In this document: positions 43,415 to 64,000 of the stretch, piece by piece
How the letters are laid out: each line of letters begins with the position of its first letter
Numbering within the stretch: position 1 is the first letter of the stretch
Origin: Phycisphaerae bacterium
GTDB lineage: Bacteria; Planctomycetota; Phycisphaerae; UBA1845
Assembly (NCBI GenBank): GCA_029260075.1
Contig: JAJDDY010000027.1
Location: 62,001-126,000 of the forward strand
Direction: 5' to 3'
DNA length: 64,000 bases
Made by a program: the position numbers and the translations under genes
The notes under the pieces: model-generated
What the model saw: only the letters and a program-made list of their open reading frames with translations
What the model was told of the DNA's origin: nothing
Database searches by the model: none

Positions 43415-44221
43415 CTACGAACTTGTGGTTCGACCGTCGGTTAACACGTCTACGCCGTCATCGGTGATGGCCATCGTATGCTCGAAATGAGCCGCCGCCT
43501 GTCTGTCACGGGTCACAATGACCCAACAATCGTCGTCGCCGTATTCGACTTCGTGCGATCCTTGGTTCACCATCGGCTCGACGGCCAGCACCATGCCGGC
43601 CGCCAACTCGAAATCCATATGGGCCTGCTTCGGGCTCCAATAGTTCGGAACCTTGGGATCCTCATGCATTTCCTTGCCGATACCGTGACCCACAAAATCA
43701 CGAACGACGGCAAACTTCGCATCTTCGACCAGCCGCTGCATACCGCGTGCGACCTCGCTCCACATGCGACCGGGACGCATCTCGGCGATCGCCCAGGAGA
43801 GCGCCGCATCGGTCACTTCAAGTAAGCGATTCACCTCCGGCGACACCGTGCCGACAGGTATCGTCGTCGCCGAGTCTCCGCAGTAACCGCCCAACAACAC
43901 ACCGCAGTCCACGCTTATTATGTCGCCGTCCGCAAGCTTCCGGTCACCCGGAACGCCGTGGACCAATTCCTCGTTGACGCTCGTACACAGCGCACCGGGG
44001 AACGGGTCGCGCGCCTGCGGGTGGGTCACACCCTTGAACAGCGCCGTCCCGCCGGCTTCGACGATCATCGCCTCAGCCACCGTGTTGAGCTCACCGGTGG
44101 TGACACCCGGCTTGGCAAGCTCACGCATGTGCGTCAGCACCTGATGAACCACCGCGCCGGCCGCACGCATCAACTCGCGTTCGCGAGCGCTCTTCAAGAT
44201 GATGCCCGCTGTCGCCTTCAT
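43415..44221 (-). CDS. map: methionine aminopeptidase type I
   Basis: A 268-residue enzyme that removes the initiator Met co-translationally. ATG 44221 (MKATAGIILKSARERELMRA) is preferred to an ATG 45 bases upstream, which would add a basic extension; GAGGTG is just before it. The dinuclear metal ligands are visible: Asp in ISVDCGV, Asp in CGDSATT, His in VGHGIGKEMHEDP, Glu in AVEPMV and Glu in HFEHTMAI. Located after secY, its common place, but with no adk before it. Confidence 0.96.
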   Translation of the reverse strand: MKATAGIILKSARERELMRAAGAVVHQVLTHMRELAKPGVTTGELNTVAEAMIVEAGGTALFKGVTHPQARDPFPGALCTSVNEELVHGVPGDRKLADGDIISVDCGVLLGGYCGDSATTIPVGTVSPEVNRLLEVTDAALSWAIAEMRPGRMWSEVARGMQRLVEDAKFAVVRDFVGHGIGKEMHEDPKVPNYWSPKQAHMDFELAAGMVLAVEPMVNQGSHEVEYGDDDCWVIVTRDRQAAAHFEHTMAITDDGVDVLTDGRTTSS

Positions 44222-44323
44222 CGCACCTCGCCGACTCTTTCGCTTCCGACGCTTCGACCGGAGCATGCTATGACCAACCCGGAAAGCCGAAGACCAACGT
44301 TAACCCATTCGGATTGACAGGCG

Positions 44324-45682
<1,359 letters not shown>

Positions 45683-45722
45683 GTGTGTATCCGACTTGAC
45701 CGCCTCCGTGCGGCCACACTTT

Positions 45723-46172
45723 CTAGACTATGATCCGTGCTTCGCCGCCCGCGGCCTTGATCTTCTCTTCTGCCGACTTGCTGAAACGAGCCGCATCAAC
45801 CGTAAGCTTCTTGCTGAGTGACCCGTTGCCAAGCACCTTGATCGGCTGGCGCAGGTTTCGGATCAGCCCGACTTCCATCATCGACTGCAGCGTCACGTGC
45901 GAACCGGCTTCGTATCGACCCTCAAGATCTTCGAGGTTCACAATACCATAACGAACGGTGAAGTTGGCGTTACTAAAACCGCGTTTCGGAATGCGGCGGA
46001 AGGTCGGCATCTGCCCACCCTCTTGCTGCGACCGCTGACGCCAACCAGAGCGCTGACCGAAACCCTTGTGGCCCCGACCGGACGTCTTACCCGATCCGGA
46101 CCCCGCACCGCGACCCACACGCTTTCGGCGCTTATTACTGCCCGCTCTTTTGGTAATATCTGTAATATTCAT
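45723..46172 (-). CDS. rplO: 50S ribosomal protein L15
   Basis: A 149-residue protein with the Gly-rich N-terminal extension KRVGRGAGSGSGKTSGRGHK and GFGQRSGWRQRSQQEGGQMP, and the globular C-terminal half ending AAGGEARIIV. Only three bases separate it from rpsE, so rpmD (L30), which usually lies between them, is absent. Confidence 0.96.
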   Translation of the reverse strand: MNITDITKRAGSNKRRKRVGRGAGSGSGKTSGRGHKGFGQRSGWRQRSQQEGGQMPTFRRIPKRGFSNANFTVRYGIVNLEDLEGRYEAGSHVTLQSMMEVGLIRNLRQPIKVLGNGSLSKKLTVDAARFSKSAEEKIKAAGGEARIIV

Positions 46173-46175
46173 TTG

Positions 46176-46688
46176 CTAACTCGCCAACCGAACGCCGCGC
46201 AATTCCTCGACGTCGTCACGGCTCAACATTTCCATCAAACCAGCCAGCGTAGCGCCGACAAGGTTGCGTGGGTTGTTCGAGCCGAAGCTCTTGGTCAAAC
46301 AATCGTGTACGCCGGCAAGTTCCAAAACGGCTCGGACGCTCGAACCGGCGATCACACCGGTACCCGGACTGGCTGGCACCAGCACAACGTGACTGGCCCC
46401 GCAGCGGCCAACGACACGATGCGGAATCGTACCGCCGACCAGTTTCACGCGCTTTATGGCCTGCGTCGCGTTCTTCCGACCCTTTTCCACCGCGGACGGA
46501 ACCTCTTTCGACTTGCCGTAACCCACACCAACCTTGCCCTTGCGGTCACCCGCAACGACCAAGGCGCCGAAGCTAAAACGACGCCCACCACGCACGACAG
46601 CCGCGCAGCGATTGATACGGACCACGATATCGTCGATACCGGAACCGTCGGATTCAAAGAAACCTTTTGAGTTACGCGCTCCAGCCAT
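46176..46688 (-). CDS. rpsE: 30S ribosomal protein S5
   Basis: A 170-residue protein that helps decoding fidelity and mRNA unwinding. The S5 double-stranded RNA binding-like domain has VVRINRCAAVVRGGRRFSFG then ALVVAGDRKGKVGVGYGKSK, and the C-terminal domain VRAVLELAGVHDCLTKSFGS then NNPRNLVGATLAGL. Confidence 0.96.
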   Translation of the reverse strand: MAGARNSKGFFESDGSGIDDIVVRINRCAAVVRGGRRFSFGALVVAGDRKGKVGVGYGKSKEVPSAVEKGRKNATQAIKRVKLVGGTIPHRVVGRCGASHVVLVPASPGTGVIAGSSVRAVLELAGVHDCLTKSFGSNNPRNLVGATLAGLMEMLSRDDVEELRGVRLAS

Positions 46689-46731
46689 TACACTTGCCCC
46701 AATCGATCCGCGCCAATCTGCGCCAGCGGAT

Positions 46732-47100
46732 CTAGAACTTCAAACCACCCTCACGGGCAGCATCGGCCAAACCCTTAACCCGCCCGTGGAAACGGTACCC
46801 GTTGCGATCGAAACACACCGTCTCGATGTTGATCGCCTTGGCGGACTCGGCCAGCGCCAGACCAACAATTTTGGCGGCTGCGACGTTGCCGCCATAGTTT
46901 ACCTGTTCGCGAAGCGCCTTGTGCCTCGTGCTCGCGCCGCAAAGCGTTACGCCGCTATCATCATCGATGATCTGTGCGTAAATATGCTTGCTGCTACGAA
47001 ACACGGACAAACGCGGTTTGCTCGCAGTACCGAACACAGATTTACGAATGCCGCGCTTCCGCCGCGTCCGCCGCTCAGATTTTAGTTTGCTCGCTCTCAT
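46732..47100 (-). CDS. rplR: 50S ribosomal protein L18
   Basis: A 122-residue 5S rRNA-binding protein: [34 protein letters not shown] and [20 protein letters not shown], then EGGLKF at the C-terminus. ATG 47100 is used; in-frame GTG and TTG codons directly upstream are alternatives. Confidence 0.95.
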
Positions 47101-47147
47101 CACCAAGTCATCTTGTGGGCGTGCTTAGCCCGAATAGGATCATCAGC

Positions 47148-47744
47148 CTAACCGGCGCCAGCCAGCGCCTTACCCACCTTACGCCGTACCTGCTCGTCAT
47201 CGTAGCGGACGCCCTTGCCCTTATACGGCTCGGTCTTTCTCAGGCTCCGAATTTCGGCGGCAAACTGGCCAACCCGCTGTTTATCGAAACCACTGATCAC
47301 CATCGCCGCGGGCTCACTTTCGCCTCGCGCCGACTCGCGCTCGACCTTAATGGCCAAACCCTCGGGGACCGGCAATTCGAACTGTGAACCGATGCCACGG
47401 CGGCGACCGGTGAACCCCAAGCTAAGGTGCAACACGTTACCCTGAAGTTTGCAGCCGTAGCCCGTACCGAAAATCAACAGGCGCTTTTGAAAGCCTTCTG
47501 ATACGCCCTTCACCATGTTGGCGATCAGCGCCCGGGTCAACCCATGGTTGGCCCGGCTCGATTTCGTATCGTCGCTGCGCGTCACCGTGATCGTCGAACT
47601 CGACTGATCGAAACTGACCGCCGCATTGAACGGATGCGCCCAGACCGAATTCCCCTTCGGCCCCGACACACTCACATCGCGCCCGGACACTTTGACAGTC
47701 ACCCCAGAGGGGACCGTTATTGGTTTTTTTCCGATCCTTGACAT
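47148..47744 (-). CDS. rplF: 50S ribosomal protein L6
   Basis: A 198-residue protein with two L6 domains: MSRIGKKPITVPSGVTVKVS and, in the second, PEGLAIKVE and SGFDKQRVGQFAAEIRSLRK, then PEPYKGKGVRY-like text. An in-frame start 111 bases upstream, running into rpsH, is rejected. It lies near the factor-binding site of the 50S. Confidence 0.96.
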   Translation of the reverse strand: MSRIGKKPITVPSGVTVKVSGRDVSVSGPKGNSVWAHPFNAAVSFDQSSSTITVTRSDDTKSSRANHGLTRALIANMVKGVSEGFQKRLLIFGTGYGCKLQGNVLHLSLGFTGRRRGIGSQFELPVPEGLAIKVERESARGESEPAAMVISGFDKQRVGQFAAEIRSLRKTEPYKGKGVRYDDEQVRRKVGKALAGAG

Positions 47745-47806
47745 CAACAACACCCTAACGACCGATTGGCCCAAAGAGCTAGCAGCTCCGCCAAACCGAT
47801 GGCCGA

Positions 47807-48202
47807 CTAATATACCGTGCAGAGAACCTCGCCGCCGACGCTTTGTGCCCGACACGCACGATCACTGAGCACGCCCTTGTTCGTCGAAAGAATAGCGATA
47901 CCCAGTCCGTCCAACACCTTGCCCAAGTCGTTGACGCCGCGATAAACGCGACAGCCACTCTTGGACACGCGATCGATGGCGTGGATAACGTCCTCGCCCC
48001 GTGCGCCATACTTCAAGTCGATGCGGAGGATGCCTTGCTTGGTATCCTCGATAAAATCGAACCCGTTGACGTAGCCCTCGTCCTTGAGTACCTGCGCCAC
48101 ACCAATCTTGAGATTGGACGATGGCATGGACACCTGCTGATGCCGCGCACGAACACCGTTACGGATCCGCGTCAACATGTCGGCAATCGTATCAGACCAC
48201 AT
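47807..48202 (-). CDS. rpsH: 30S ribosomal protein S8
   Basis: A 131-residue central-domain 16S rRNA binder and often the translational repressor of the spc operon. Starts MWSDTIADMLTRIRNGVRAR; the C-terminal half has SKSGCRVYRGVNDLGKVLDG and ends GGEVLCTVY, the normal family end. Confidence 0.96.
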   Translation of the reverse strand: MWSDTIADMLTRIRNGVRARHQQVSMPSSNLKIGVAQVLKDEGYVNGFDFIEDTKQGILRIDLKYGARGEDVIHAIDRVSKSGCRVYRGVNDLGKVLDGLGIAILSTNKGVLSDRACRAQSVGGEVLCTVY

Positions 48203-48258
48203 AGAAGCTACACTCCGTCAATCGCGATCTGGAAGATCGCACGCAAACCGCCAGCTAC

Positions 48259-48444
48259 CTACCAGCTCGCCTTGCGAACACCGGGGATTACGCCCTCATG
48301 GGCCATGCCGCGAAAACAAATCCGACACAGACGGAACTTGCGGTACACCGCCCGAACGCGTCCACACAACTCACAACGCCGAATCTGACGACACGCGTAT
48401 TTGGGCTCTCGTTTCGCCTTTGCAATCCAAGCTTTAGTAGCCAT
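48259..48444 (-). CDS. rpsN: 30S ribosomal protein S14, zinc-binding (type Z)
   Basis: A 61-residue protein with the two CxxC pairs CELCGR and CRICFR and the C-terminal [11 protein letters not shown]. This is the short C+ form, matching the zinc forms of S4 and L36 in this cluster. Its stop is two bases from the rplE frame side, tightly packed. Confidence 0.97.
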
Positions 48445-48446
48445 AC

Positions 48447-49001
48447 TTATTCCTGTTGTTCCGTCTTGCGGAATGGAACGCCGAGCAGGGCCAACAACTC
48501 CCTCGCGTGGGCGTCCGTTCCGGCCGTAGTGACAAACGTCACGTTCATGCCGTGCGTAAAGGCCACCTTGGCCAGGTCAATCTCTGCAAAGATCGTCTGG
48601 TCCGAAATGCCCATCGAATAGTTACCCCGACCATCAAAGCTACGCGGGTTGAGGCCTCGAAAGTCGCGCATACGTGGAATAGCGGCGTTGACCAATCGGT
48701 CCACAAATTCGAACATCCGCTTGCCCCGCAACGTAACCCGACATCCGACCTCGTAACCCTTGCGGAGTTTGAAGTTGGACACCGAACGCCGAGCGCGACG
48801 AATCTGCGCTTTCTGACCGGAAATCCGACCGAGATCGGCGGCTACTTCGGGAAGTCGCTTCTTGTCGACCACGGGGGATCCCGTGCCCATCGAGATCACG
48901 ACCTTGCTTAACCGCGGCACGGCCATCGGATTCTCGATGCCCAAAGTCTCTTTCAACTTCGGGCCCAACTCCGTCTTATATTGTTCTAACAACCTAGCCA
49001 T
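48447..49001 (-). CDS. rplE: 50S ribosomal protein L5
   Basis: A 184-residue 5S rRNA-binding protein of the central protuberance, contacting P-site t[23 protein letters not shown] is the family start; an in-frame ATG 30 bases upstream is less likely. [20 protein letters not shown] and [20 protein letters not shown] are conserved blocks. Confidence 0.96.
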
Positions 49002-49039
49002 CGGCTCGCGTTCCGATCTCAAAAAACTCACTGCTGAAT

Positions 49040-49402
49040 CTATTCCGACGCACGTTCGGTCCGCGTCAGCGTGTGCAATGTCGTCCCCGACAACGCCACG
49101 CGACGCTTTTCAACGACGCGGCCGGTCTCATCGTTCCGTGTTACCTGAAAATGAACACGCTGACCCTTACCCGCGCCGGAATCGTACGCCAACACATTGG
49201 ACACATGGATCGGTGCCTCTTTCTGCAAACGTCCACCCTGCGGGTTACGCTGCGTCGGACGCACATGACGAAAGACCATGTTCACGCCCTCTACGATCAC
49301 CAAGCGACGGCGTAAATCCACACGCAACACCTTGCCACGCGCACCCCGGTGGTCGCCCGAGATCACTTCGACCATGTCGTTCTTACAAATGTGTACGGCC
49401 AT
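49040..49402 (-). CDS. rplX: 50S ribosomal protein L24
   Basis: A 120-residue assembly initiator with the KOW motif (DMVEVISGDHRGARGKVLRV) and GVNMVFRHVRPTQRNPQGGR. The usual length is about 105; the extra residues are at the C-terminus. Confidence 0.95.
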   Translation of the reverse strand: MAVHICKNDMVEVISGDHRGARGKVLRVDLRRRLVIVEGVNMVFRHVRPTQRNPQGGRLQKEAPIHVSNVLAYDSGAGKGQRVHFQVTRNDETGRVVEKRRVALSGTTLHTLTRTERASE

Positions 49403-49482
49403 GCGATATATCCAAACGAATCAGACCCACCGGTCCAACCCGGCCCCAATCTGGGGACCATGCTTCGCACTGCGAAGAGGAG

Positions 49483-49899
49483 CTAGACCACCTCTTCCGC
49501 TAGCGAAACGATCTTCATGAAATTCTTTTCGCGAAGCTCACGGGCCACAGCACCGAAGATCCGCGTACCACGCGGCTCGTTCTTATCATCCAAGAGCACG
49601 ACCGCGTTCGAATCAAAACGAACGTAGCTACCGTCAGGCCGGCGTGTCGGCATCTTCATGCGGACCACGACCGCCTTCGCTTTTCGGCGCTTGGACCGAT
49701 CCTTGCGATCCGCACCACCGCTGAACTCGCTACCCGGCAACGACTTTTTCACCGTGACCAGCACGATGTCGCCGATCCTGGCGCACTTCAGACGCTTCTT
49801 GCCGGCGCGAGACGTACTACCCTTATATACGTTGATCACCATGGCGGCTTTGGCGCCCGTGTTATCGGTCACGTCCACCACGGTTTGCATCTGGATCAT
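49483..49899 (-). CDS. rplN: 50S ribosomal protein L14 with a basic loop insertion
   Basis: A 138-residue protein at the intersubunit face. [20 protein letters not shown] and the C-terminal [20 protein letters not shown] are standard. Compared with the usual 122 residues, extra basic residues lie around 28-36 ([10 protein letters not shown]) and 60-74 ([15 protein letters not shown]). Confidence 0.95.
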
Positions 49900-49963
49900 C
49901 GTATCGACCTTACTTTGAAACTAGGCACCGGACGCCTGCCCGGTAGGGCCACAAACGCCCCTG

Positions 49964-50254
49964 CTAAGCAACCGAACGTACCACGCGAATCAAGCGCCAC
50001 GACTTCGTCTTCGAAATAGGACGACAGGCCATGACCTCGACCGTATCACCCATCGCGGCCTTGTTGGCTTCGTCATGGGCATACAACGTCGTAGAACGCT
50101 TGTAATACTTTCCGTACTTCGGATGCTTGACCATATAGTCAAAACTCACACGAATCGTCTTTTGCCCTTTGTCCGAGACCACCGTCCCGACGCGGACTTC
50201 GCGTTTGTTCCGTTCTTTGTTGCCATCTACTGCGTTTGTCACAATCGTTGCCAT
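49964..50254 (-). CDS. rpsQ: 30S ribosomal protein S17
   Basis: A 96-residue early 16S rRNA binder, OB fold: KREVRVGTVVSDKGQKTIRV, then KHPKYGKYYKRSTTLYAHDE and GDTVEVMACRPISKTKSWRL. The N-terminus has about ten extra residues. Confidence 0.96.
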   Translation of the reverse strand: MATIVTNAVDGNKERNKREVRVGTVVSDKGQKTIRVSFDYMVKHPKYGKYYKRSTTLYAHDEANKAAMGDTVEVMACRPISKTKSWRLIRVVRSVA

Positions 50255-50297
50255 CCGTCGTGGGAGCGAACAATCGCCGCCCCGAAAACATTATGCC

Positions 50298-50543
50298 TTA
50301 CTTAGCCTTGACCGCGGCGACCGCTTCCAGATGCCGTTGCGTCTGCTCAATTGCTTCCTCGCCGCGCTCATTGAGAATCGTCAAGACCCTCGCAATATCC
50401 TTGGCCGCATCCCTAATCTGATGCGGATTCTCAAGCTTCTCGGTCACCGCCTGCGATCGAAGATCGAAGGCATGCCTCCGGAGGCGCTCCAGCTCGGAGT
50501 GCAACTCCGCAGTCTTCATGGCTCGATACTCGTTCGCCTTCAC
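50298..50543 (-). CDS. rpmC: 50S ribosomal protein L29
   Basis: An 81-residue protein at the tunnel exit: KANEYRAMKTAELHSELERL, then RRHAFDLRSQAVTEKLENPH. GTG at 50543 is chosen because GGGGAG lies ten bases upstream and it gives the family N-terminus; TTG at 50561 is in frame but starts inside that site. The C-terminal helix is somewhat extended. Confidence 0.93.
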   Translation of the reverse strand: MKANEYRAMKTAELHSELERLRRHAFDLRSQAVTEKLENPHQIRDAAKDIARVLTILNERGEEAIEQTQRHLEAVAAVKAK

Positions 50544-50564
50544 AACGACAATACTCCCCAATGA

Positions 50565-50984
50565 CTACAGACCGTGGCGACGCTTCACAAAACGACACCG
50601 AAAAGGCATCTTGTGCGTTACCCGCAACAGCGCACCACGGGCAATCTCTTCCTTAACACCACCGATCTCAAAGATCATCGTGCCTTCGCGGACGCGAGCG
50701 ACCCAGTAGTCCGGCTCACCTTTTCCTTTACCCATCCGCGTTTCGAGCGGCTTGGACGAAACGGGCTTGTGCGGGAACACCCGCGTATAGACCCGTCCTT
50801 CGCGGTGGAGGTAGTGCGTCGCCGCGATTCGTCCGGCCTCCAACTGACGAGCGGTAATCCAACCGGCCGCCAGAATCTGCAAACCGTACTCACCGAACGA
50901 AACCACGTTACCCCGCGACGCCCGCCCGCACACTTTGCCGCGCTGACTTTTGCGCCACCTTACTCTCTTGGGCATCATGGCCAT
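50565..50984 (-). CDS. rplP: 50S ribosomal protein L16
   Basis: A 139-residue protein near the A-site. MPKRVRWRKSQRGKVCGRAS, GKGKGEPDYWVARVREGTMI then FEIGGV are conserved. ATG 50984 has GGTGGAG eight bases upstream; ATGs at 50978 and 50975 are alternatives. Confidence 0.96.
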   Translation of the reverse strand: MAMMPKRVRWRKSQRGKVCGRASRGNVVSFGEYGLQILAAGWITARQLEAGRIAATHYLHREGRVYTRVFPHKPVSSKPLETRMGKGKGEPDYWVARVREGTMIFEIGGVKEEIARGALLRVTHKMPFRCRFVKRRHGL

Positions 50985-51070
50985 GACGTATACTCCACCC
51001 GCCTACCGGGAATTCAACAAAACACGCCCACCAACGACGGACAACTTAACCAACCAAGCACACCACGCGA

Positions 51071-51769
51071 TCAACCGCGCTTACCGCGACGCTCACGACC
51101 GCGGGGGGCCACATCTTCCAACGCCACCTCTTCACCGTACCGACCGTGGTACAGCCAAACCTTGATACCGATGGCACCATACGTCGTTCGAGAAGTGGCC
51201 GTGCCATAGTCCACATGGGCTTGCAGCGTATGCAACGGAATAGAGCCGCGAATTTGCGTCTCCTTCCGCGCCATCTCCGCACCACCCAAACGACCCTTGC
51301 ACATGATCTTGATGCCCTTGGCACCACAGGCCATGGACGCATCGGCACGCATCTTCATCACCCGGCGAAAGCTCGTTCGCTTGCGGAGCTGCTCCGCAAT
51401 GGCCTCAGCCACAAGCTTCGCGTTGCCGTCGGGTACCTTGATCTCGACAATATTCAAATTGATCTTCCGGTCGATCAAGTCTTCAAGCTCACCCTTGAGC
51501 TTGTCGACCTCGGCGCCTTTGGCGCCGATGACCAGTCCCGGACGGGCCGTATGAAGGAACACCTTCACTTCGTCCCGCGTTCGTTCGATCTCAACACGCG
51601 CCACCGCAGCGTATGGGGGTTGACGGTTGAGCCGATGGTCCACGTAACGCCGGACCCGGGCATCCTCAATCAGAAACTCCGCGAACGCCGCCTTGGGCGC
51701 GAACCATCTGGAGCGCCAATCTTCGGTGATCCCAATCCGGAATCCCGTTGGATGAATTTTCTGTCCCAC
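51071..51769 (-). CDS. rpsC: 30S ribosomal protein S3
   Basis: A 232-residue protein at the mRNA entry, KH type 2 domain with VIGAKGAEVDKLKGELEDLI. The start is GTG at 51769 (GQKIHPTGFRIGITEDWRSR), with GGGAG six bases upstream; a longer frame to 51883 overlaps rplV and is rejected. The tail is basic (GRERRGKRG). Confidence 0.95.
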   Translation of the reverse strand: MGQKIHPTGFRIGITEDWRSRWFAPKAAFAEFLIEDARVRRYVDHRLNRQPPYAAVARVEIERTRDEVKVFLHTARPGLVIGAKGAEVDKLKGELEDLIDRKINLNIVEIKVPDGNAKLVAEAIAEQLRKRTSFRRVMKMRADASMACGAKGIKIMCKGRLGGAEMARKETQIRGSIPLHTLQAHVDYGTATSRTTYGAIGIKVWLYHGRYGEEVALEDVAPRGRERRGKRG

Positions 51770-51801
51770 GCGTAACTCCCACGCCGCTACGAAGCGACTG
51801 G

Positions 51802-52155
51802 TTAACCCTCGGCCACCGTCAAAACAATGTGACTGGTCCTCTTGGCGATCGGATGAGCCCGACCACGATCTTTCGGCCGCCACCGGCGGAAGTAAGGGCC
51901 GCCGTCGACACGGGCTTCCTTGACGATCAGGCGATGCATATCCGCCTCATGCTCGTCAGCACTCACCATCGCCGACCTCAACACAGCCTCAACCATTCGG
52001 GCAGCGCGACGCCGATTGAACCGCAGTTGGTCCATCGCATCGCTGCAACGCTGCCCGCGGATCATGTCAACCGTCAGCCGGGCCTTGCGCGGCGAAATCC
52101 GAGCAAAGCGATGCAGCGCCGTCCACAAGCGTTCCGTACTGGTTTTCGAAGCCAT
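51802..52155 (-). CDS. rplV: 50S ribosomal protein L22
   Basis: A 117-residue protein whose beta-hairpin lines the exit tunnel. RISPRKARLTVDMIRGQRCS, KEARVDGGPYFRRWRPKDRG then RAHPIAKRTSHI are conserved. ATG 52155 used; an in-frame TTG precedes it. Confidence 0.96.
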   Translation of the reverse strand: MASKTSTERLWTALHRFARISPRKARLTVDMIRGQRCSDAMDQLRFNRRRAARMVEAVLRSAMVSADEHEADMHRLIVKEARVDGGPYFRRWRPKDRGRAHPIAKRTSHIVLTVAEG

Positions 52156-52208
52156 CAAATTAACCCAACAAAACAGGAAACTCTAGCAACAGCCGCCAGG
52201 TTCCATAG

Positions 52209-52481
52209 CTACCGTTTCTTCTTGCCGCCGACGTGGCCACGAAACGTCCGCGTCGGACTGAACTCACCCAGTTTGTGACCAACCATTTCCTCGGTTACGT
52301 AAACAGAGTGAAAGACCTTGCCGTTATGCACCTCAAAACGATGCCCGACAAACTCAGGAACGATCGTACATGAGCGACACCACGTCTTGAGCGAGGTCGA
52401 CGAACCAGAGGCCTTGAGGTTCATCACCTTCCCAAAGAGCTTCTCATCGACAAAGGGGCCCTTCTTCTGCGACCGTGTCAT
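52209..52481 (-). CDS. rpsS: 30S ribosomal protein S19
   Basis: A 90-residue head protein. [40 protein letters not shown] then [18 protein letters not shown] are typical. A terminator-shaped hairpin stands between rplB and this gene (52530-52564), unusual inside an S10 operon. Confidence 0.96.
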
Positions 52482-52529
52482 TTGGAACGCTCCATCGGGA
52501 TCAACGTGCTTCGCACTCGATCACTCGCC

Positions 52530-52564
52530 AAAAAAACGGGCACCCGAAACCATCAAGTGCCCGT
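52530..52564 (-). terminator. intrinsic terminator shape between rplB and rpsS
   Basis: On the minus strand ACGGGCAC (52564-52557), a 13-base loop, GTGCCCGT (52543-52536), then a run of seven T (52536-52530, the first shared with the stem). It starts ten bases after the rplB stop. Canonical in shape; it could act as partial terminator or attenuator within the ribosomal protein operon. Confidence 0.7.
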
Positions 52565-52573
52565 AAAAAATCA

Positions 52574-53440
52574 CTATCGCTTAGGCCGCGGAAGCTGCCC
52601 ATAACGCTTACTCTTACGACGGCGCAAGATACGCCGATTCGAAATCTTATTGTTGGGACGCGTGCGTCCACCCTTGGCCAACTTGCCTGTCGGACTGCAC
52701 GGGTGACGACCACCACCGCTCCGGCCTTCACCACCACCCAGTGGGTGAGAGACCGGGTTTTGGGCCGTGCCGCGCACATGAGGCCGGCGACCGCGATGAC
52801 GGTTTCGACCGGCCTTACCCCACCGTAAACCGCGATGGTCCACGTTGCCGATCTGCCCAATCGTTCCGCGACATTCGGAGCGAACCTCTCTCATTTCACC
52901 GGAAGGCATAATGAGAATCGCCCACTTGTCGTCGCGAGACAAAAGCCTAGCCGACGCGCCGGCAGCACGGGCAATCTTCCCGCCTTGTCCGCTATTCATC
53001 TCAATATTATGAACGTCCAATCCCGGTGGAATCGAACGGAGCGGCATGGCATTGCCAACCTTGGGCTCGACCTGCGTACCGCTTTCGACCTCGTCGCCCT
53101 TAGTCAACCCTGTCGGCGCCAGAATATATCGCTTTTCACCGTCTGGGTAGTGGAGGAGGGCGATATGGCAGGAGCGATTCGGGTCATACTCAATCGCCAC
53201 CACACTACCAACAGAGCCGTCCTTATTCCGCTTGAAGTCAATACGGCGATAGATCTTGCGAGCGCCGCCACCGCGATGACGCGACGTGATCACGCCGTGG
53301 TGGTTTCGGCCACCCTTTCGGCAGATACGCTCGCACAACGACTTCTCCGGACGCTTGCGATTGCCGGTCAACTCGGAATAATCGTTGACGTTCGACGCAC
53401 GGCGTCCAGGCGACGTTGGCTTGTATGTTTTGACACCCAT
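52574..53440 (-). CDS. rplB: 50S ribosomal protein L2
   Basis: A 288-residue primary 23S rRNA binder needed for peptidyl transferase. MGVKTYKPTSPGRRASNVND, the KNSGRN-like SGQGGKIARAAGASARLL region and the C-terminal VSHPLGGGEGRSGGGRHPCS with the conserved His are present. The tail FLRRRKS/KRYG form is slightly long. Confidence 0.97.
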   Translation of the reverse strand: MGVKTYKPTSPGRRASNVNDYSELTGNRKRPEKSLCERICRKGGRNHHGVITSRHRGGGARKIYRRIDFKRNKDGSVGSVVAIEYDPNRSCHIALLHYPDGEKRYILAPTGLTKGDEVESGTQVEPKVGNAMPLRSIPPGLDVHNIEMNSGQGGKIARAAGASARLLSRDDKWAILIMPSGEMREVRSECRGTIGQIGNVDHRGLRWGKAGRNRHRGRRPHVRGTAQNPVSHPLGGGEGRSGGGRHPCSPTGKLAKGGRTRPNNKISNRRILRRRKSKRYGQLPRPKR

Positions 53441-53497
53441 CAGTCAATGGACCTTGTATCGACCGGCAGTCCAACCGCCGACCGCAACACAATCGTC

Positions 53498-53809
53498 TTA
53501 GAACAGATCTATGTGGAATTCGCCGCGCAACACGACGACAGCCTTCTTCCAATCGGGACGACGCCCCATCTTGAACTTCACCCGACGCATCTTGCCCTTA
53601 CGGGAAGAGGTTCGAACCGAACTCACCCGCACGCCGTAAATCTTCTCAATGGCCTGGCGAATCTCAGGCTTAGACGCCTTGGGGTGAACCTCAAAGGTAT
53701 ACGCCCCGCCGCGAGCACGCTCATGCCTCGTGGCTGCATGGGACTGCTGCGACTGATGCGTGCCCTTCTCGGTCACCAGGGGTCGTCGAACTACGTGATA
53801 AATATCCAT
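53498..53809 (-). CDS. rplW: 50S ribosomal protein L23
   Basis: A 103-residue protein at the tunnel exit, docking site for trigger factor and SRP. MDIYHVVRRPLVTEKGTHQS, TFEVHPKASKPEIRQAIEKI then YGVRVSSVRTSSRKGKMRR are family blocks. Only five bases separate it from rplD. Confidence 0.96.
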   Translation of the reverse strand: MDIYHVVRRPLVTEKGTHQSQQSHAATRHERARGGAYTFEVHPKASKPEIRQAIEKIYGVRVSSVRTSSRKGKMRRVKFKMGRRPDWKKAVVVLRGEFHIDLF

Positions 53810-53814
53810 GGTTA

Positions 53815-54471
53815 CTACTCGCCCGAATCGTCGCCCGCCGGGGCCGTTCCGACACCAACGAGCCGCTCAAAGGCCGGCCTCGTAAAAATGACCTTGCGAC
53901 GCCGAAGCACCTCATAGGCAGTAAGTTCATCAACCGTCCGAATGTCCGCCTTGGGGATATTGCGACCGGACAGGTAGACGTTGCGGTCACGCTCATTGAT
54001 CGCCATGAGGCAACCCCTGTCGGCACCCAACGCCGAAAACATACCCGCCATCAACTTAGTCTTGACCTCGGGACAGGAAAAACCATCTACCACCACGACG
54101 TCGTTCGCTCGAATTTTGGCGAGCAAGGCACTGTCGCGAGCCAGTCGACGCATCTTCTGCGGCATGGCCGCCACGGCGCGCGGGCCGCGCTTCGCGAACG
54201 TATGGCCGCCACCGCGACGGATCGGCGTTCTCGCCATGCCCGCACGAGCGTTACCCGTACCCTTTTGACGATAAAGCTTGCGTGTCGAACCGGAAACATC
54301 CGAACGCGACTTCGTTCTTGCACTGTGCTGGCGCTGGCGATCGAGAAAGGCCACGACCGCCTGCTTGATCAACTGATGTCGAACGCGACCGCCGAGCACG
54401 GCCGGATCGAAGGAAATCTCGCCGGCGGACTTGCCCTGCATATCAACTACGGGGACAGCATCCATCAGCAA
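53815..54471 (-). CDS. rplD: 50S ribosomal protein L4
   Basis: A 218-residue protein, in E. coli also the autorepressor of the S10 operon. The extended tunnel loop has RKLYRQKGTGNARAGMARTP and IRRGGGHTFAKRGPR. Its first codons overlap the end of rplC by seven bases, suggesting translational coupling. Confidence 0.96.
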   Translation of the reverse strand: MLMDAVPVVDMQGKSAGEISFDPAVLGGRVRHQLIKQAVVAFLDRQRQHSARTKSRSDVSGSTRKLYRQKGTGNARAGMARTPIRRGGGHTFAKRGPRAVAAMPQKMRRLARDSALLAKIRANDVVVVDGFSCPEVKTKLMAGMFSALGADRGCLMAINERDRNVYLSGRNIPKADIRTVDELTAYEVLRRRKVIFTRPAFERLVGVGTAPAGDDSGE

Positions 54472-55121
54472 CCACCCTTCTTCTTCGCTTGCTGAACGAC
54501 GACCACCGAGCCGCTAGGACCAGGGACGCTCCCGCGAATCAACATAACGTCGCTGTCGCGATCGACCGACACGAGCGAAAGGTTGGTGGCGGTACAACGC
54601 ACGTGACCCATTTGACCGGCCATCCGTTTACCCTTCTTGACGCCGCGACCAGTAGCACCGGGCGCGTCACCGCCAATACTTCCGGCGGAGCGATGCTTGC
54701 GCTCGACACCGTGCGAGGCTTCTTTACCACCAAAACCATGCCGCTTCATGACGCCCGCGAAACCAGCACCTTTGGTCGTACCAGTCACGTCGACGTAGGC
54801 GACCGAGCCGCCATCGAACTGCTCGACGGTTAGCACGTCACCCGCAGCCAGTTTCGCCGCTTCATTCAGTCGAATCTCTCGAACCGTACGCTTGGGACCG
54901 GTGCCCGCCTTGGCGGCGTGGCCGATCATGGGTCGCGTGGAACGATGCGGCTTGACGTCACCAAATGCGATCTGCACCGCGTCGTACCCGTCCGTCTCTT
55001 TGGTTCGCACCTGAAGCACAACACAGGGACCGGCCTGAACCACGGTGACAGGGATCGCCCGCCCGCGTTCGCCGAGTATCTGCGTCATGCCGATTTTCGT
55101 ACCAATCAAAGCCGGAATCAT
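54465..55121 (-). CDS. rplC: 50S ribosomal protein L3
   Basis: A 218-residue protein that reaches toward the peptidyl transferase centre. MIPALIGTKIGMTQILGERG, GTTKGAGFAGVMKRHGFGG and GRGVKKGKRMAGQMGHVRCT are conserved. A small inverted repeat (AAGCCCG/CGGGCTT, 55135-55164) lies just upstream in the 146-base gap from rpsJ. Confidence 0.96.
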   Translation of the reverse strand: MIPALIGTKIGMTQILGERGRAIPVTVVQAGPCVVLQVRTKETDGYDAVQIAFGDVKPHRSTRPMIGHAAKAGTGPKRTVREIRLNEAAKLAAGDVLTVEQFDGGSVAYVDVTGTTKGAGFAGVMKRHGFGGKEASHGVERKHRSAGSIGGDAPGATGRGVKKGKRMAGQMGHVRCTATNLSLVSVDRDSDVMLIRGSVPGPSGSVVVVQQAKKKGGC

Positions 55122-55267
55122 TTATCTATCACCCAAGCCCGCGACCACTTCGGATGACGGGCTTCATCCTGGTATTTCTTACGTGCGATAAAGCTCACAC
55201 GCCTGTTGTCGACAAAGGAGGATTAAAGAACTTGACCCACCGCCGCCTGCTTCTTACGCCACCTCGC

Positions 55268-55579
55268 CTACGTCTTGATCTTGATGAACACGCCAGCGGG
55301 CACCTGAATGCGGTTGATGGCTTCGACCGTTCGTGCAGTTGGTTCACTGATGTCAATGATGCGCTTATGAGTTCGCATTTCGAACTGCTCGCGCGATTTC
55401 TTGTCGATGTGGGGTCCACGTAGAACGGTGTATCGCTCGATGCGTGTAGGGAGGGGAATCGGACCATGGACCTTAGCACTGGTGCGCTTGGCCTGCTCGA
55501 CGATCTCGCGAGCCGCCGCATCGAGCGCACGCGTGTCGTACGCCTCCATACGAATCCGAATCCGCAACTTACTACTCAT
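55268..55579 (-). CDS. rpsJ: 30S ribosomal protein S10
   Basis: A 103-residue protein that also serves as NusE in antitermination. [40 protein letters not shown] then [19 protein letters not shown] are typical. ATG 55579 used; one 12 bases upstream is in frame. First gene after the promoter at 55649-55676. No tuf gene precedes it. Confidence 0.96.
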
Positions 55580-55648
55580 CTCGACTGACACCCAATCTCA
55601 TCGACACGCTACAGCGGCAAAAAACGAAAATTTACCGCAGACCCGGAA

Positions 55649-55701
55649 GCTTAATCCAACGCCGCCCCCTGTCAACCTCTACCGGTGGAACTTTTTTTTT
55701 G
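55649..55701 (-). promoter_or_regulatory. promoter of the S10-spc-alpha cluster with A-tract
   Basis: On the minus strand: a run of nine A (55701-55693), then TTGACA (55676-55671, consensus -35), 16 bases, TAAGCT (55654-55649, -10). It lies 70 bases before rpsJ. The A-tract 16 bases upstream of the -35 could act as an UP element, as at strong ribosomal promoters. A true start site is not proven. Confidence 0.55.
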
Positions 55702-55760
55702 AGAACTGGCCTAATCTTGTGGAGACCGGGCCTCACGGCGTCCGAGAGAACCATTCCACC

Positions 55761-57827
<2,067 letters not shown>

Positions 57828-57876
57828 GAGCCCCACCTTGCCTTGTAGCACCGGGCGTTTCGGCGCACGAACAATG

Positions 57877-57907
57877 AAAACGAGCCCGCCCGAGGTTCGG
57901 GCGGGCT
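57877..57907 (-). terminator. terminator-like hairpin between rpsG and EF-G2
   Basis: On the minus strand AGCCCGCCCG (57907-57898), loop AACCT, CGGGCGGGCT (57892-57883), then CGTTTTC. A perfect 10-base GC-rich stem with a short T-run, 27 bases after the rpsG stop. It suggests reduced read-through into EF-G2. Confidence 0.6.
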
Positions 57908-57933
57908 CTGTATGCTGGATTAAGTTTTGCGAA

Positions 57934-58410
57934 CTACCAGGCGAAGTGGGCAAACGCCTTGTTCGCATCGGCCATGCGGTGCATGTTCGTACGGGTTTGG
58001 AACGCCGTGCCCTCACCACGATACGCATCGACGATTTCCTGTGCGAGCGACATGCACGTGGGCTTGCCGCCGCGAGCTCGCGAAGCGTCACGAATCCAGC
58101 GGAACGCCAGCGACGTCTGTCGCTTGCGCGTGACCGGCATCGGCACTTGATAGTTACTTCCACCCACGCGGCGAGAACGAACCTCAACCGACGGGCGACA
58201 CTTGTTGATCGCTTCTTCGAATATTTCGTTCGGCGGTTTTTCCGGAACTCGCTTGGCGACGATCTCCAGCGCATCGTACACCATGCGTGTCGCGACGCTC
58301 TTCTTGCCGTCGTACATCATGTAATTGATGAACTTGCCGAGCAGCAGGCTCTCGAACTTCGTGTCCGGTTTCAATTGAGCCGCCGAGTTTGTGAACTTCT
58401 TGTAGGCCAT
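57934..58410 (-). CDS. rpsG: 30S ribosomal protein S7
   Basis: A 158-residue initiator of 30S head assembly. [20 protein letters not shown]; conserved [40 protein letters not shown] and [10 protein letters not shown]. An in-frame start 33 bases upstream is less likely. It lies after the bioY-like gene instead of directly after rpsL. Confidence 0.96.
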
Positions 58411-58477
58411 GATGGTTCGCCTGTCGCTCCAGTCTTGCGCCAAGCCGAAAATCGGCGGGCGTCATTATCAATTACAC

Positions 58478-59140
58478 TTAATCCGCCGGTCGATACGACC
58501 GACGACGCGGAATCAGTCGGTCGTTTCGCCACGACCACGCCGCCACGACCGCCAGGGTCATGGTCACTAGCGATTTGCCGACAAAGGGCAACAAACCGGT
58601 GAAAATCGCTTGGACAACATGCCCGCGGACACCGCCTGCGAGCAGCACCAAGCCCACGCGCCACAGCACGCCCATTGCAAAAATCGCCAGCGTGCCCGCG
58701 CACACACCGACGAAAAGTCGACCAAAGCTTCGGGTTTCAGCGCTGATCCGACTCACCAGCCACGCCGCCACCACGAAACCGAAAAGGTATCCCGCAGTCG
58801 AACCGGTCAAACCGGCGGGATGGGCAAACACGCCAAACCCGACAGCACCGCACGCGAGGTAAAGCATCGTAGCCGCCGCAGCGCGACGCGCCGGAAGGGA
58901 CAGACCGACCAGCAAGACCGCAAGGTGCTGCAGCGTCATGGGCACGTCGGTCCCGGGTACCGGAACACGAACCTGCGCAGACACACAAAGCGCCATGCAT
59001 CCCAGCGCGACACCGACCACAGCACCCAACGTCGCACGACGACCATTGACCGGCGTAACCACCACGCGGCGATCATTCGCAACCCGGAGAATGCCTGCGG
59101 TACCCGTCGCCGAAAGTCTACTTACGTCGTTTGACGCCAT
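58478..59140 (-). CDS. BioY family transporter (biotin uptake-like S component)
   Basis: About 220 residues with around six membrane segments. [20 protein letters not shown] then [40 protein letters not shown] then [11 protein letters not shown] are the BioY hallmarks (PVPxTxVPxTxQ and the GPTxGYLxGF-like block). BioY is the biotin-binding component of ECF transporters and can work alone in some bacteria. ATG 59140 overlaps the 3' end of rpsL by 23 bases; start codons further in are possible. A transporter between rpsL and rpsG is unusual. No bioM/bioN genes are nearby. Confidence 0.88.
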
Positions 59141-59507
59141 ACTTACTTCGGCTTCGATTTCGCGGATTTCCTTCCTTGTCGCCTTCAACGCCGGCAGCGT
59201 CGAGGGCACCACGGATCACATGGTAACGCACGCCGGGAAGATCCCGAACACGTCCGCCCCGGACCAGCACAATGGAGTGCTCTTGCAGGTTGTGGTCGAC
59301 GCCGGGAATATAGGCGGTCACTTCCTTCCCGTTGGTCAAGCGAACACGCGTCACCTTACGAAGAGCCGAGTTCGGCTTCTTGGGTGTCTGCGTCTTGACG
59401 ATCAGACAGACCGCACGTCGTTGCGGCGATCGCTCCAAGTCGCGAACGTTGGATTTCTTGACCACCTTCTTGCGGCCTCTTCGAACTAGTTGATTGATTG
59501 TCGGCAT
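59118..59507 (-). CDS. rpsL: 30S ribosomal protein S12
   Basis: A 129-residue decoding-centre protein, target of streptomycin resistance. [40 protein letters not shown] has Lys of the wild-type (sensitive) form, as does [20 protein letters not shown]. An in-frame start 30 bases upstream is less likely; GGTGGGC precedes the chosen ATG. It follows rpoC by about 60 bases. Confidence 0.97.
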
Positions 59508-59552
59508 TGGTTTGCCCACCACCTCTACTGCGATCATTACAACCGCTCTGTC

Positions 59553-59570
59553 GAGTCCGCGTTCGGACTC
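59553..59570 (-). promoter_or_regulatory. intercistronic hairpin between rpoC and rpsL
   Basis: Perfect stem GAGTCCG / CGGACTC with a four-base loop, right at the rpoC stop codon. There is no T-run, so it is more likely an RNA stability or processing element than a terminator. Confidence 0.45.
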
Positions 59571-62500
59571 TAGTCTTCCGTCGTAGTTACTGTATCTGAC
59601 GCCTCTGCTGGTGCAGCCACACTGGCCGACTCTGACCAGCTTGTGGCTGCGGGCGACGCGACCGCCGTCGCGCCCAAGAGATCGAGCGGCGAGCGAGGCG
59701 CCGTTATGCCCAACTCGCTACCGAGACCTAAGTCCGCTGGAACCTCGACCGGCTGCGCCAGCGGCTCGCCAAGCTGCTTGACCCGAAGCAACTGATGCTT
59801 CTTGAAACCCGTCCCCGCAGGAATCAGATGCCCCAGTATGACGTTTTCTTTCAATCCTTGCAACGTGTCGATATGACCGCCCAACGCCGCCTCGGTCAGG
59901 ACTTTCGTGGTTTCCTGGAATGACGCCGAAGATATGAAGGAATCGCTCGACAAGCTCGCCTTGGTAATTCCGAGCAACATCGTGGTAGCGGAGGCTGGCT
60001 TCGGTTTCTTGCCCTTGGCACGCTCCCCGCCCTTCTCCTCCGCAGCTTCGTTGATTTCCACAAGGTCAGCCTTGAACACGACATCACCAATTGCCAGTTT
60101 CGTGTCCCCGGCGTTGGAAATGACCACGCTCTTCGTCAGACGCACGTTCTCAGCACGGAAACGGAACTTGTCGACGACTTCGCCGGGGAGGAATTTGGAG
60201 TCGCCGGGCTGCTCGATCTTCACACGGAGCAACATTTGCCCAACGATAACTTCGAGGTGCTTGTCGGTGATGACCACGTTCTGGCTTCGGTAGACTGCCT
60301 GAACCTCCGCGAGCAAGTAGTCCTGTAGTGCCTCTTCGCCTTTGATACGCAAAATATCGTGCGGAATCATCGGCCCGTCGATCAACGGCTCGCCCGCTTC
60401 GACCGCGTCGCCCGCATGCACCAGAAGGTGCTTATCGTGCGGGACATGGTGTTCCTTCTCCATTCCACTCTCGTTGCAAATGACGATCGTCATCTTGCCG
60501 CGACGCTTGTCGGCGCGAATTTCCACCGTCCCCGAAATCTCCGCCATAACCGCAGCGTCTTTCGGACGGCGTGCTTCGAAAATTTCTGTGACACGCGGCA
60601 ATCCGCCGGTGATGTCCTGCGTACCGCCCATATCGCGAGGCTGACGGGCCAACTCCATACCTGGAAGAATCTCCTGCCCCTCTTCCACCTCGATTCGGGC
60701 TTTGGCGGGAAGATAGTGATAGTCGAGCACGTTTCCGTCTTTATCCTCGACCACAATCTGCGGGTGTTTTTCGCCCTTGTGCTCGATGACAACGAATCGC
60801 GAGCTGCCGCCCTCCTGCTCCAGCCGAACCGTCTCACCCTCAGCCACATCCTGGAACCGGACGAAACCGCCGACCTCGGCCAAGATGGGCGTCAGGTGCG
60901 GATCCCATTGGCAGATCAGTTCGCCACGCGCCACCTTTTGGCCGTCCTTCACCAAGAGAATGCCACCATATGGCACTTTGTCACGCGAAAGCTCACGCCC
61001 CTTCTCGTCCAAGAGCAAGACCTCACCGTTGCGCTTAAGCGAAACAGTATGCGTGTCCTTGCCATCGACGTTGGGCACTTCAACTGGATTAAGGTCTTGG
61101 TACTTCACTACGCCTTTTTGAGTGGCACGGAACGTATCCTCCATAGCCGTCTTCTGGGCGACGCCACCGGTATGGAACGTACGCATCGTGAGCTGCGTTC
61201 CGGGCTCACCGATGGACTGGGCGGCCAAAATTCCGACGGCCATTCCTTGCTCAACCTGTCGACCGGTTGACATGTCCATACCGTAGCAAGCGGCACAGAC
61301 ACCCACCGGCTCCTCGCACGTCAGCGGGCTTCGTACACGAATCTTGTCCAGCCCAAGTTCTTCGATCCGCGTGGCGATCACCTTCGTGATGATGTCATCC
61401 TCGGCCACAATAAGTTCGTCGGTGATGGGGTTGACGATGCCGTCACGCGCCACGCGACCGATGATGCTGTCACGCAATGGGATGTCGACTTCTTCGCCTT
61501 TGTAGATGGCACACTTGGTGACGCCGTTAATTGTGCCGCAATTGGCCGCGACCACGATCACGTTTTGTGCTACGTCGGCCAGCTTTCGCGTCAGGTAACC
61601 CGAGTCGGCGGTTTTCAACGCCGTGTCCGCCAATCCCTTGCGCGCACCGTGCGTGGAGCTGAAGTACTCGAGTACGGACAGTCCCTCACGGAAGTTGGCT
61701 TTGATCGGCGTCTCAATGATTTCGCCGGACGGCTTCGCCATCAGCGCCCGCATGCCCGCGAGCTGACGAATCTGGTCCACGCTACCACGGGCACCGGACT
61801 CGGTCATAAGATAAATCGGGTTGAGGTAGGCGTGGGCGCCCTTGTCGCCTGGCAACTTGTAGGCGTCGGCGCCGTCGCGGTAGTCCTCGCGCAGTTCCTT
61901 CATCATCGCCTGCGTAACGAGCTCTCGCGCGTGAATCCAAACGTCAATCACCTGATTGTATCGCTCAAGGCGCGTCAGCGTGCCGTCGTCGAACGCACGT
62001 TCAATCTTATCCACCTTTTCTTGAGCCACATCGATAATACCTCGCTTCTCACGAGGAATGCGCATGTCCGTCACGCCGAAGGAGAGGCCAGCCAGCGTTG
62101 CCCGTTTGAACCCGATTTCCTTGATATGGTCGAGTACGTCGATCGTCGCTGCGCGCCCCAGCAAGGCGTGGCAATCGTCCACCACACGCACCAACCCCTT
62201 TTGCGACAGTGCGCAGTTGTAATACGGCATGCCCTCGGGAAGCACATCGTTAAAGATCAGACGCCCTACGGTTGTGAGCACGCGCCGATTGTCGGCCATG
62301 GGTTCCGCGACATCGTTAACGCCGGAAACGACGTAATCGTGATCGACGCGAATCCAAATCTGATCGTGAATCGCGACCCGCCGGTGGTCGTACGCCAACA
62401 TGGCTTCAAACGGCGCGGCGAACGTAGGTACTTCGTTCGGTTCGACCTTGGGACTCACGTGACCGGTCGTCAGATAAAAGACGCCAATGACGATGTCCTG

Positions 62501-63994: not shown

Positions 63995-64000
63995 CGCGGC

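Follow-up and report, generated by a model that had tools for sequence, protein, structure and literature searches.

Internal terminators in known operons

The rif operon of Escherichia coli contains the rplL-rpoB attenuator, a partial terminator within a ribosomal-protein operon that divides the ribosomal from the polymerase genes. In archaea, terminators termed ioTTS are found within operons of ribosomal-protein and RNA-polymerase genes, where they show partial read-through and depend on aCPSF1 (PMC10450193), and in Clostridia, ABC-importer operons carry internal intrinsic terminators after their binding-protein genes, again with partial read-through (PMC9045158). In both cases, such terminators set unequal amounts of different proteins or complexes. 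The influence of position was addressed with the tR2 terminator in an engineered E. coli reporter, in which a Rho-independent terminator located 5 bp past a stop codon dropped from approximately 90% to less than 10% efficiency, which rose again with more distance (position experiments of PMC4824070). The S10 operon of E. coli has an intrinsic terminator in its 5′ leader, upstream of rpsJ, which serves as an attenuator under L4 and NusA (account of this leader in PMC10931766). In addition, Table 1 of PMC7247131 includes an alphaproteobacterial L2 leader, whose listed genes begin with rplB, and contains no planctomycete leader.

Here, we describe a predicted intrinsic terminator between rplB and rpsS in the S10 operon of a Phycisphaerae bacterium, found in a 64,000-nt stretch of DNA that was analysed as a whole and is referred to as the window. 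Like the archaeal and Clostridia terminators, this element lies between genes of one predicted transcription unit and would give a step between upstream and downstream genes; unlike them, it has equally needed ribosomal proteins on both sides, and the dependence of the archaeal sites on aCPSF1 is a further difference. It also differs from the rplL-rpoB attenuator in that it stands between two ribosomal genes. With the tR2 experiments, it shares a hairpin a few nucleotides past a stop codon, which a close ribosome would be expected to silence; the element in the window is, however, a natural one and not an engineered reporter. The E. coli L4/NusA attenuator is likewise an intrinsic terminator of the S10 operon (here a predicted one), but the element in the window is located after rplB and does not have the leader position of the L4 type. 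A likeness to the alphaproteobacterial L2 leader is offered by R1, a structured RNA of the S10 operon near rplB and rpsS in relatives, whereas R1 precedes rpsS and is missing from the gap in the window.

Structure of the rplB-rpsS element

The source assembly comprises 4.92 Mb in 93 contigs, with the window on contig C20. The best named relatives of its rplB belong to MAGs labelled Phycisphaerae or Phycisphaerales, from which the genome, that of a planctomycete, is probably of the class Phycisphaerae. The S10 operon runs on the minus strand in the order rpsJ, rplC, rplD, rplW, rplB, rpsS, and on to secY, and all positions given for the element refer to this strand. The gap of 92 nt that holds the element is bounded by rplB (uL2; 52574..53440), which ends in a TAG stop at 52576-52574, shortly ahead of the element, and by rpsS (uS19; 52209..52481), the first gene past it, which begins with an ATG at 52481; both genes come from the list of open reading frames and their translations. 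The stop codon is followed by a spacer of 9 nt, TGATTTTTT (52565..52573), which includes six consecutive T, and then by the hairpin (52536..52564), in which the arms ACGGGCAC and GTGCCCGT form a perfect GC-rich stem of 8 bp. Four further pairs (two G-U, one G-C, and one A-U) bring the whole hairpin to 12; its loop is TGGTT (5 nt) and its dG is -20.3 kcal/mol. A run of seven T (52530..52536), located by sequence and terminator scan, completes the element, and its first T (52536) pairs in the stem. Against the stem of a typical intrinsic terminator (GC-rich, approximately 7-12 bp, with a short loop), the element has 12 pairs, 7 of them GC by the count of the tool, and a loop of 5 nt; against the typical run of 6-8 U right after the stem, it has seven T with the first one paired. 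The last T of the run is 44 nt beyond the end of rplB, and a further 48 nt separate it from rpsS. The sequence-only reading of this DNA had noted a hairpin and seven T on the coding strand just past rplB, and sequence, terminator scan, and fold all bear this out; the spacer, which it had given as ten bases, is exactly 9 nt.

Between the T-run and rpsS, a fold of the gap revealed a second, weaker hairpin, GATCGAGTGCGAAGCACGTTGATC (52499..52522); several relatives, judged by eye, have a second hairpin here too. The GGAG at 52490..52493 is likely the Shine-Dalgarno sequence of rpsS, and given this motif, rpsS can probably start translation on its own. The further downstream genes, rplV to secY, occupy 44324..52158. 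A long row of genes does follow the element, as had been stated, but the figure of eighteen more ribosomal and secretion genes does not hold, since 16 genes are found from rpsS to secY (15 ribosomal genes and secY) and these are followed by map, rpsM, rpsK, rpsD, rpoA, and rplQ, which were named from their translations.

Strength of the element relative to chance

A generic terminator scan of 18 kb revealed no surplus of terminator-like sites (20 found versus 20.4 expected), so the mere presence of such a site proves nothing and the evidence lies in its strength. The fold of the gap region has a z of -2.2, with 8 of 200 shuffles folding equally well. Strength was assessed in an own-genome sample of 460,459 bases (the window plus 396 kb), which contains six perfect-stem hairpins with a dG of -20 or lower and at least 5 T of 7, two of them being one palindrome on both strands, compared with none in four first-order resamplings of the whole sample. 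A tail with 6 or more T of 7 is found in two of the six, of which only the rplB-rpsS hairpin has six consecutive T after the stem. At a dG of -15 or lower, no perfect-stem hairpin with at least 6 T of 7 appeared in the four resamplings of the 460-kb sample, and the strongest A-tail hairpin of the real sample reached -17.0. A bulge-tolerant scan also detected a stronger element in a convergent gap (dG -39.6, seven unpaired T). The rplB-rpsS element thus ranks with the strongest terminator-like sites detected in the sample, though not as the single strongest, and it is unusual for its placement in a short gap between co-directional genes.

A functionless inverted repeat that stands beside a T-run by chance is nevertheless to be considered. 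When bulges were allowed and the threshold was loosened to a dG of -14 or lower, the rplB-rpsS site was the sole match in 53 short (20-120 nt) co-directional gaps, and the A-tail control also gave 1 of 53; in a relative with a complete genome (G046, 400 kb), such a hairpin was found in 1 of 88 short co-directional gaps and the A-tail control again gave 1, the genes in both scans having been called by a rough codon-usage method. That the sequence comes from a MAG and that the nearest relatives lack the hairpin would also fit chance. However, no hairpin of similar strength was obtained in resampled sequence, and similar elements recur above controls in the S10 operon, as described below, which makes chance hardly credible as an explanation.

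A REP-like repetitive palindrome was ruled out, as a search that allowed up to 3 mismatches found just one copy of the element in the genome. A search for an antiterminator partner in 52209-53000 found no 8-nt complement of the 5′ arm except its own partner; the longest complement was 7 nt, located 409 nt upstream. Elsewhere in the window, a strong terminator-like hairpin, GAGCCCGCCCG AACCT CGGGCGGGCTC followed by GTTTTCATTG, was observed in the rpsG-fusA gap (57882-57908, minus strand), ahead of position 57827, where fusA likely starts.

Conservation at the site and recurrence within the operon

The rplB-rpsS gap was compared in 73 genomes, namely 49 of the 51 genomes of the window's family f1 (the window included) and 24 from other families of the order. 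By a strict scan, a strong terminator is present in this gap only in the window, and two other genomes have weak forms with a dG of about -8 (G026 and G001). On a tree built from eight ribosomal proteins, the nearest relatives are G011 and three g32 genomes (genera g12 and g32), none of which has the hairpin; the copy in the window, which is the sole representative of its genus in the comparison, is therefore lineage-specific. Conservation in related genomes had been named in the sequence-only reading as a check on the element, and this check, once run, came out negative for the hairpin itself.

Three of the genomes compared (G032, G028, and G038) have strong hairpins in the rplB-rpsS gap with no T-run. 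This is what might be expected if the hairpin acted on the finished mRNA, either as a decay barrier, as a processing site, or in spacing the translation of rplB and rpsS, with an incidental T-run. Such a role is quite improbable for the element in the window, considering that perfect-stem hairpins with a rich T tail were absent from the resampled sequence at a dG of -15 or lower and that A-tail hairpins of equal strength were found in none of 912 operon gaps at a dG of -18 or lower. The G038 gap (locus L066) is filled by a palindrome with arms of approximately 26 bp and a fold of -74 kcal/mol, which resembles an inserted repeat element.

Every gap from rpsJ to secY that is covered by the loci of the 73 genomes, some of these loci being partial, was also scanned. 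A strict perfect-stem scan (dG of -8 or lower) gave a match in 13 of 1233 gaps versus 8 for the A-tail control, and with bulges tolerated (dG of -10 or lower) the sense strand had 44 matches, compared with 17 for the A-tail control and 11 for the antisense strand. Among gaps no shorter than 20 nt, which number 912, there were 29 sense, 7 A-tail, and 2 antisense matches at a dG of -14 or lower (20 shuffles: mean 4.55, maximum 10), and 16 sense matches with no A-tail or antisense match at a dG of -18 or lower (20 shuffles: mean 0.8, maximum 2). The matches at -14 or lower are mainly located in the first six gaps, from rpsJ to rplV (24 of 297, versus 5 of 615 in later gaps; Fisher p 2e-8, which is too optimistic and only a guide because the early/late split was made after an earlier scan had been viewed and because the genomes are related). 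An element of this strength is present in the early gaps of 20 of the 73 genomes, and most genomes are without one. In the window, no hairpin with a T-run and a dG of -14 or lower was found from rplV to secY in gaps of at least 20 nt.

The position of the element differs among lineages: it follows rplC in family f8, rplD in genus g5, and rplB in the window; in addition, G001 has it after rpsS, G061 after rplW, and both G032 and G065 after rpsJ. Two lineages have retained it. In f8, an rplC-rplD hairpin with energies from -16.7 to -25.8 is present in 13 of 17 genomes (13 of the loci L277-L293), and the T tail that follows has at least 5 consecutive T in 8 of the 13, four in 4, and TTCTT in 1 (G050). 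The 5′ arm GGUCG is invariant and the 3′ arm CGGCC is near-invariant, while the inner stems differ in sequence and length yet fold; since the outer pairs hardly vary, they provide little information on covariation, and the fact that GGUCG/CGGCC is kept in sequence, beyond pairing, hints at a bound protein. The four f8 genomes without the element comprise G191 (12-nt gap), G212 (9-nt gap), G256 (126-nt gap), and G260, whose gap could not be extracted. In g5, an rplD-rplW hairpin is present in all five species (L034, L062, and L230-L232), with tails such as TTTTTGTTG. Among the matches listed in the open-access literature, we found no report of terminators within the S10 operon of planctomycetes and no termination map of a planctomycete.

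A separate pattern was observed by eye in the rpsJ-rplC gap of f8 (e.g., L277, L278, L281, L285, and L290), where a GAAC...GTTCCTCTG-like sequence directly follows rpsJ.

Distance to the stop codon

The S10 elements lie close to the stop codon of the preceding gene. In a hand-picked set of 16 elements (one value per genome, dG of -16 or lower, early gaps), the start is at a median of 6 nt past the stop codon (range -6 to 83), compared with a median of 43 nt (range 28-133) for 10 other strong terminators, also hand-picked (4 from G000 and 6 from G046, dG of -18 or lower, excluding the S10 one and divergent-gap matches). For these hand-picked sets, a Mann-Whitney test of the difference gives a p of 8e-5, and of 0.0014 when each lineage contributes a single value. 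A second G004 match (13 nt) and two late-gap matches (G012, 5 nt; G038, 55 nt) are outside the S10 set, and three matches 128, 419, and 553 nt from the stop codon are excluded from the comparison set, to which their addition would widen the difference. A median of 6 nt suggests that the ribosome finishing the upstream gene could block the element. In this light, the statement that the element would normally end transcription was too strong: the hairpin and T-run are indeed strong, but at 9 nt from the stop codon they are within reach of the ribosome, a position comparable to that at which the E. coli terminator mentioned above lost most of its efficiency (PMC4824070).

The distance to the next gene is also informative. 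In f8, the T-run ends 13-19 nt before the next ATG in 9 of 12 measured genomes (among these 12 distances, the L285 value of 59 nt is wrong, having been taken from an earlier T-run, and L292 gave none). No promoter fits into such a space, so read-through is needed there, except if transcription from a promoter located further upstream evades that terminator. An operon that ends at the element, with rpsS to secY transcribed from a promoter of their own, had been put forward as one solution and would be the simplest one given a strong terminator; a site inside rplB or in the gap is conceivable, and the sigma-70 rules used in the search are an assumption from which this lineage may differ. However, no sigma-70-like site was found on the minus strand from 52564 to 52481, only the 48 nt between T-run and rpsS are available, transcription from a promoter inside rplB would meet the hairpin as well, and the loci of 57 relatives (some partial) have the same gene order with all genes on one strand. 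Together with the spacing in f8, this makes the hidden promoter the weakest functional reading, and we consider it very improbable.

Motifs R1 and R2

R1 is a covarying RNA motif found in the rplB-rpsS gap of 23 of the 49 f1 genomes, which represent 13 genera and both main branches of the family tree (carriers include L034, L038, L035, and L061). It consists of helix P1, a bulged A, 2 bp, an AA bulge, and helix P2, the first two pairs of which (C-G and G-C) are invariant. For 20 sequences, the distance from the end of the inner stem to rpsS was measured and is 48-62 nt. In a pair test on 22 aligned sequences, with the structure derived from the same sequences and relatedness uncorrected, both partners vary in 10 of the 14 pairs and 91.6% of cells pair versus a shuffled mean of 78.1%. 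The covariation score is 0.520 versus 0.260 for shuffled alignments and was reached by none of 500, and sliding the partner by 1-3 columns reduced it to 0.177 or less; further pair types were not above control (25 versus 23.1, reached by 111 of 500 shuffles). One additional sequence, L050, fits R1 by hand and was misaligned by MAFFT, so it is outside alignment A2 and the R1 model.

The motif appears to be restricted to this gap. Of 47 gaps that are 60 nt or longer, 21 matched a tight R1 signature, versus none in each of 20 shuffles; a first, loose finder, which gave 592 matches in 2350 shuffles, had been discarded. At 32 bits or more, the covariance model matched only the rplB-rpsS gap, in 22 of the 51 family genomes, which are the same 22 from which it was built, and elsewhere in these 51 genomes none of the scored candidates (128 per genome, stricter filters) exceeded 28.3 bits. 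Outside the family, a single match with an E of 0.009 was obtained in 298 class genomes (21 candidates scored per genome, stricter filters), located away from ribosomal genes and judged to be due to chance. The possibility that R1 is a copy of a 16S/23S site was also rejected, the best matches in three rRNA loci having an E of about 1. With Rfam 15, no match up to E = 5 was found in 17 relatives' loci, 10 of which have R1, and ten further loci gave two matches, one to Xoo8 in L278 (31.7 bits and E 1.9e-5, against a gathering score of 90) and one to Ysr251 in L235 (20.3 bits, against a gathering score of 100). We propose R1 as a candidate ribosomal-protein leader that is apparently undescribed.

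In the window, the terminator hairpin takes the place of R1. With filters off and E up to 10, the covariance model found no R1 in the rplB-rpsS gap, and the best match in the window (E 0.85) is elsewhere, on the plus strand; the best match in the whole genome (26.3 bits) is likewise at another place. The occurrence of R1, which resembles protein-binding leaders, in the same slot of nearly half of the family makes regulation by a ribosomal protein more plausible, and the element could then be a regulated attenuator set by such a protein, for which the L4 and NusA attenuator on the S10 operon of E. coli provides an existing example (leader described in PMC10931766). On the other hand, R1 itself is absent from the gap in the window, and no Rfam leader matches the element (Rfam 15 gave two weak matches under the gathering score in 44000-64000, neither of them at this site), so that a protein-set attenuator is distinctly unlikely here.

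A second motif, R2, is a hairpin in the rpsJ-rplC gap that is present in the window (55181-55202, minus strand) and common to 34 further genomes of the order. It has UGA/UCG closing pairs, a mostly GCNNNA-like loop, and stems that vary yet pair, and it is located 43-73 nt before rplC; matches were found in 35 of 67 gaps versus 0-6 per shuffle, a fairer control than counts of pairs, which the finder partly builds in by design. R2 is a second leader candidate, possibly for L3 or L4. R1 in the relatives and R2, which the window also has, both covary and are separate candidates for ribosomal-protein leaders.

A proposed leaky attenuator gated by translation

The explanation that we tentatively prefer, at somewhat less than an even chance, is that the element is an intrinsic terminator inside the S10 operon that acts as a leaky, conditional barrier, i.e., an intra-operon attenuator that translation of rplB would hold open. 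Such an attenuator is suggested by features that can be read directly from the genomes: its structure, its strength compared with resampled sequence, the recurrence of like elements in the S10 operon of relatives, their retention in two lineages, and the short distance to the stop codon. From these we infer that the element terminates at all, that read-through would be partial, and that the ribosome would be the switch. By the end of the T-run, the polymerase would have moved about 44 nt beyond the rplB stop codon; at this separation, a closely following ribosome could already have arrived at that codon while the polymerase crosses the T-run. If a ribosome followed closely, it would cover the base of the stem from the stop codon 9 nt away and the polymerase would pass on to rpsS and the genes up to secY, whereas if translation of rplB lagged, the hairpin would form and the transcript would end after rplB. 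The outcome would be a step between rpsJ-rplB and the downstream genes, with the operon extended only while its mRNA is translated.

The genes past the element include essential ones, which means that read-through must occur, barring another promoter. Ribosomal proteins are needed in a 1:1 ratio, so a constant strong step would be disadvantageous, which weighs against the preferred explanation. The same consideration bears on the main rival of the translation-gated attenuator, a constitutive partial terminator at which a fixed share of polymerases would stop after rplB and yield more rpsJ-rplB mRNA, with no sensing of the ribosome. The sequence evidence for this rival is identical, and its principle is known from the internal terminators of archaeal (PMC10450193) and Clostridia (PMC9045158) operons, as described there for these sites. 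However, a steady step would be odd for proteins required in equal amounts, and a fixed terminator leaves unexplained why the S10 elements mostly lie within 10 nt of a stop codon when the median elsewhere is 43 nt. We therefore regard it as unlikely.

As for the suggestion that an attenuator adjusts the ratio of upstream and downstream genes, it gains from the recurrence of like elements above controls and from their retention in f8 (13/17) and g5 (5/5), whereas the window's own copy lacks such conservation. Rho is the usual agent of polarity; it is present in the four genomes tested (G000, G034, G042, and G046), and Rho-dependent polarity is also available to the organism of the window. In the same four genomes, a second Rho-like protein was observed (in G000 on contig C83:22242-23339), scoring about 414-418 bits, under the family cut-off of 509.

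Implications for the S10 operon of Phycisphaerae

A broader hypothesis, possible but rather doubtful at present, is that Phycisphaerae have a supply check on the S10 operon, in which a ribosome-gated terminator would shift between gaps from lineage to lineage (after rpsJ, rplC, rplD, rplW, rplB, or rpsS), always a few nucleotides past a stop codon, and extend the operon only while its first genes are translated; in the lineage of the window, it would have replaced R1. Intra-operon terminators as such are already known, and the novelty would lie in the recurrent, lineage-shifting form of these predicted elements near a stop codon in the S10 operon. If this hypothesis is true, it would represent a simple tie between the length of ribosomal-protein mRNA and translation in a near-universal operon, and would provide a natural test of transcription-translation coupling in planctomycetes.
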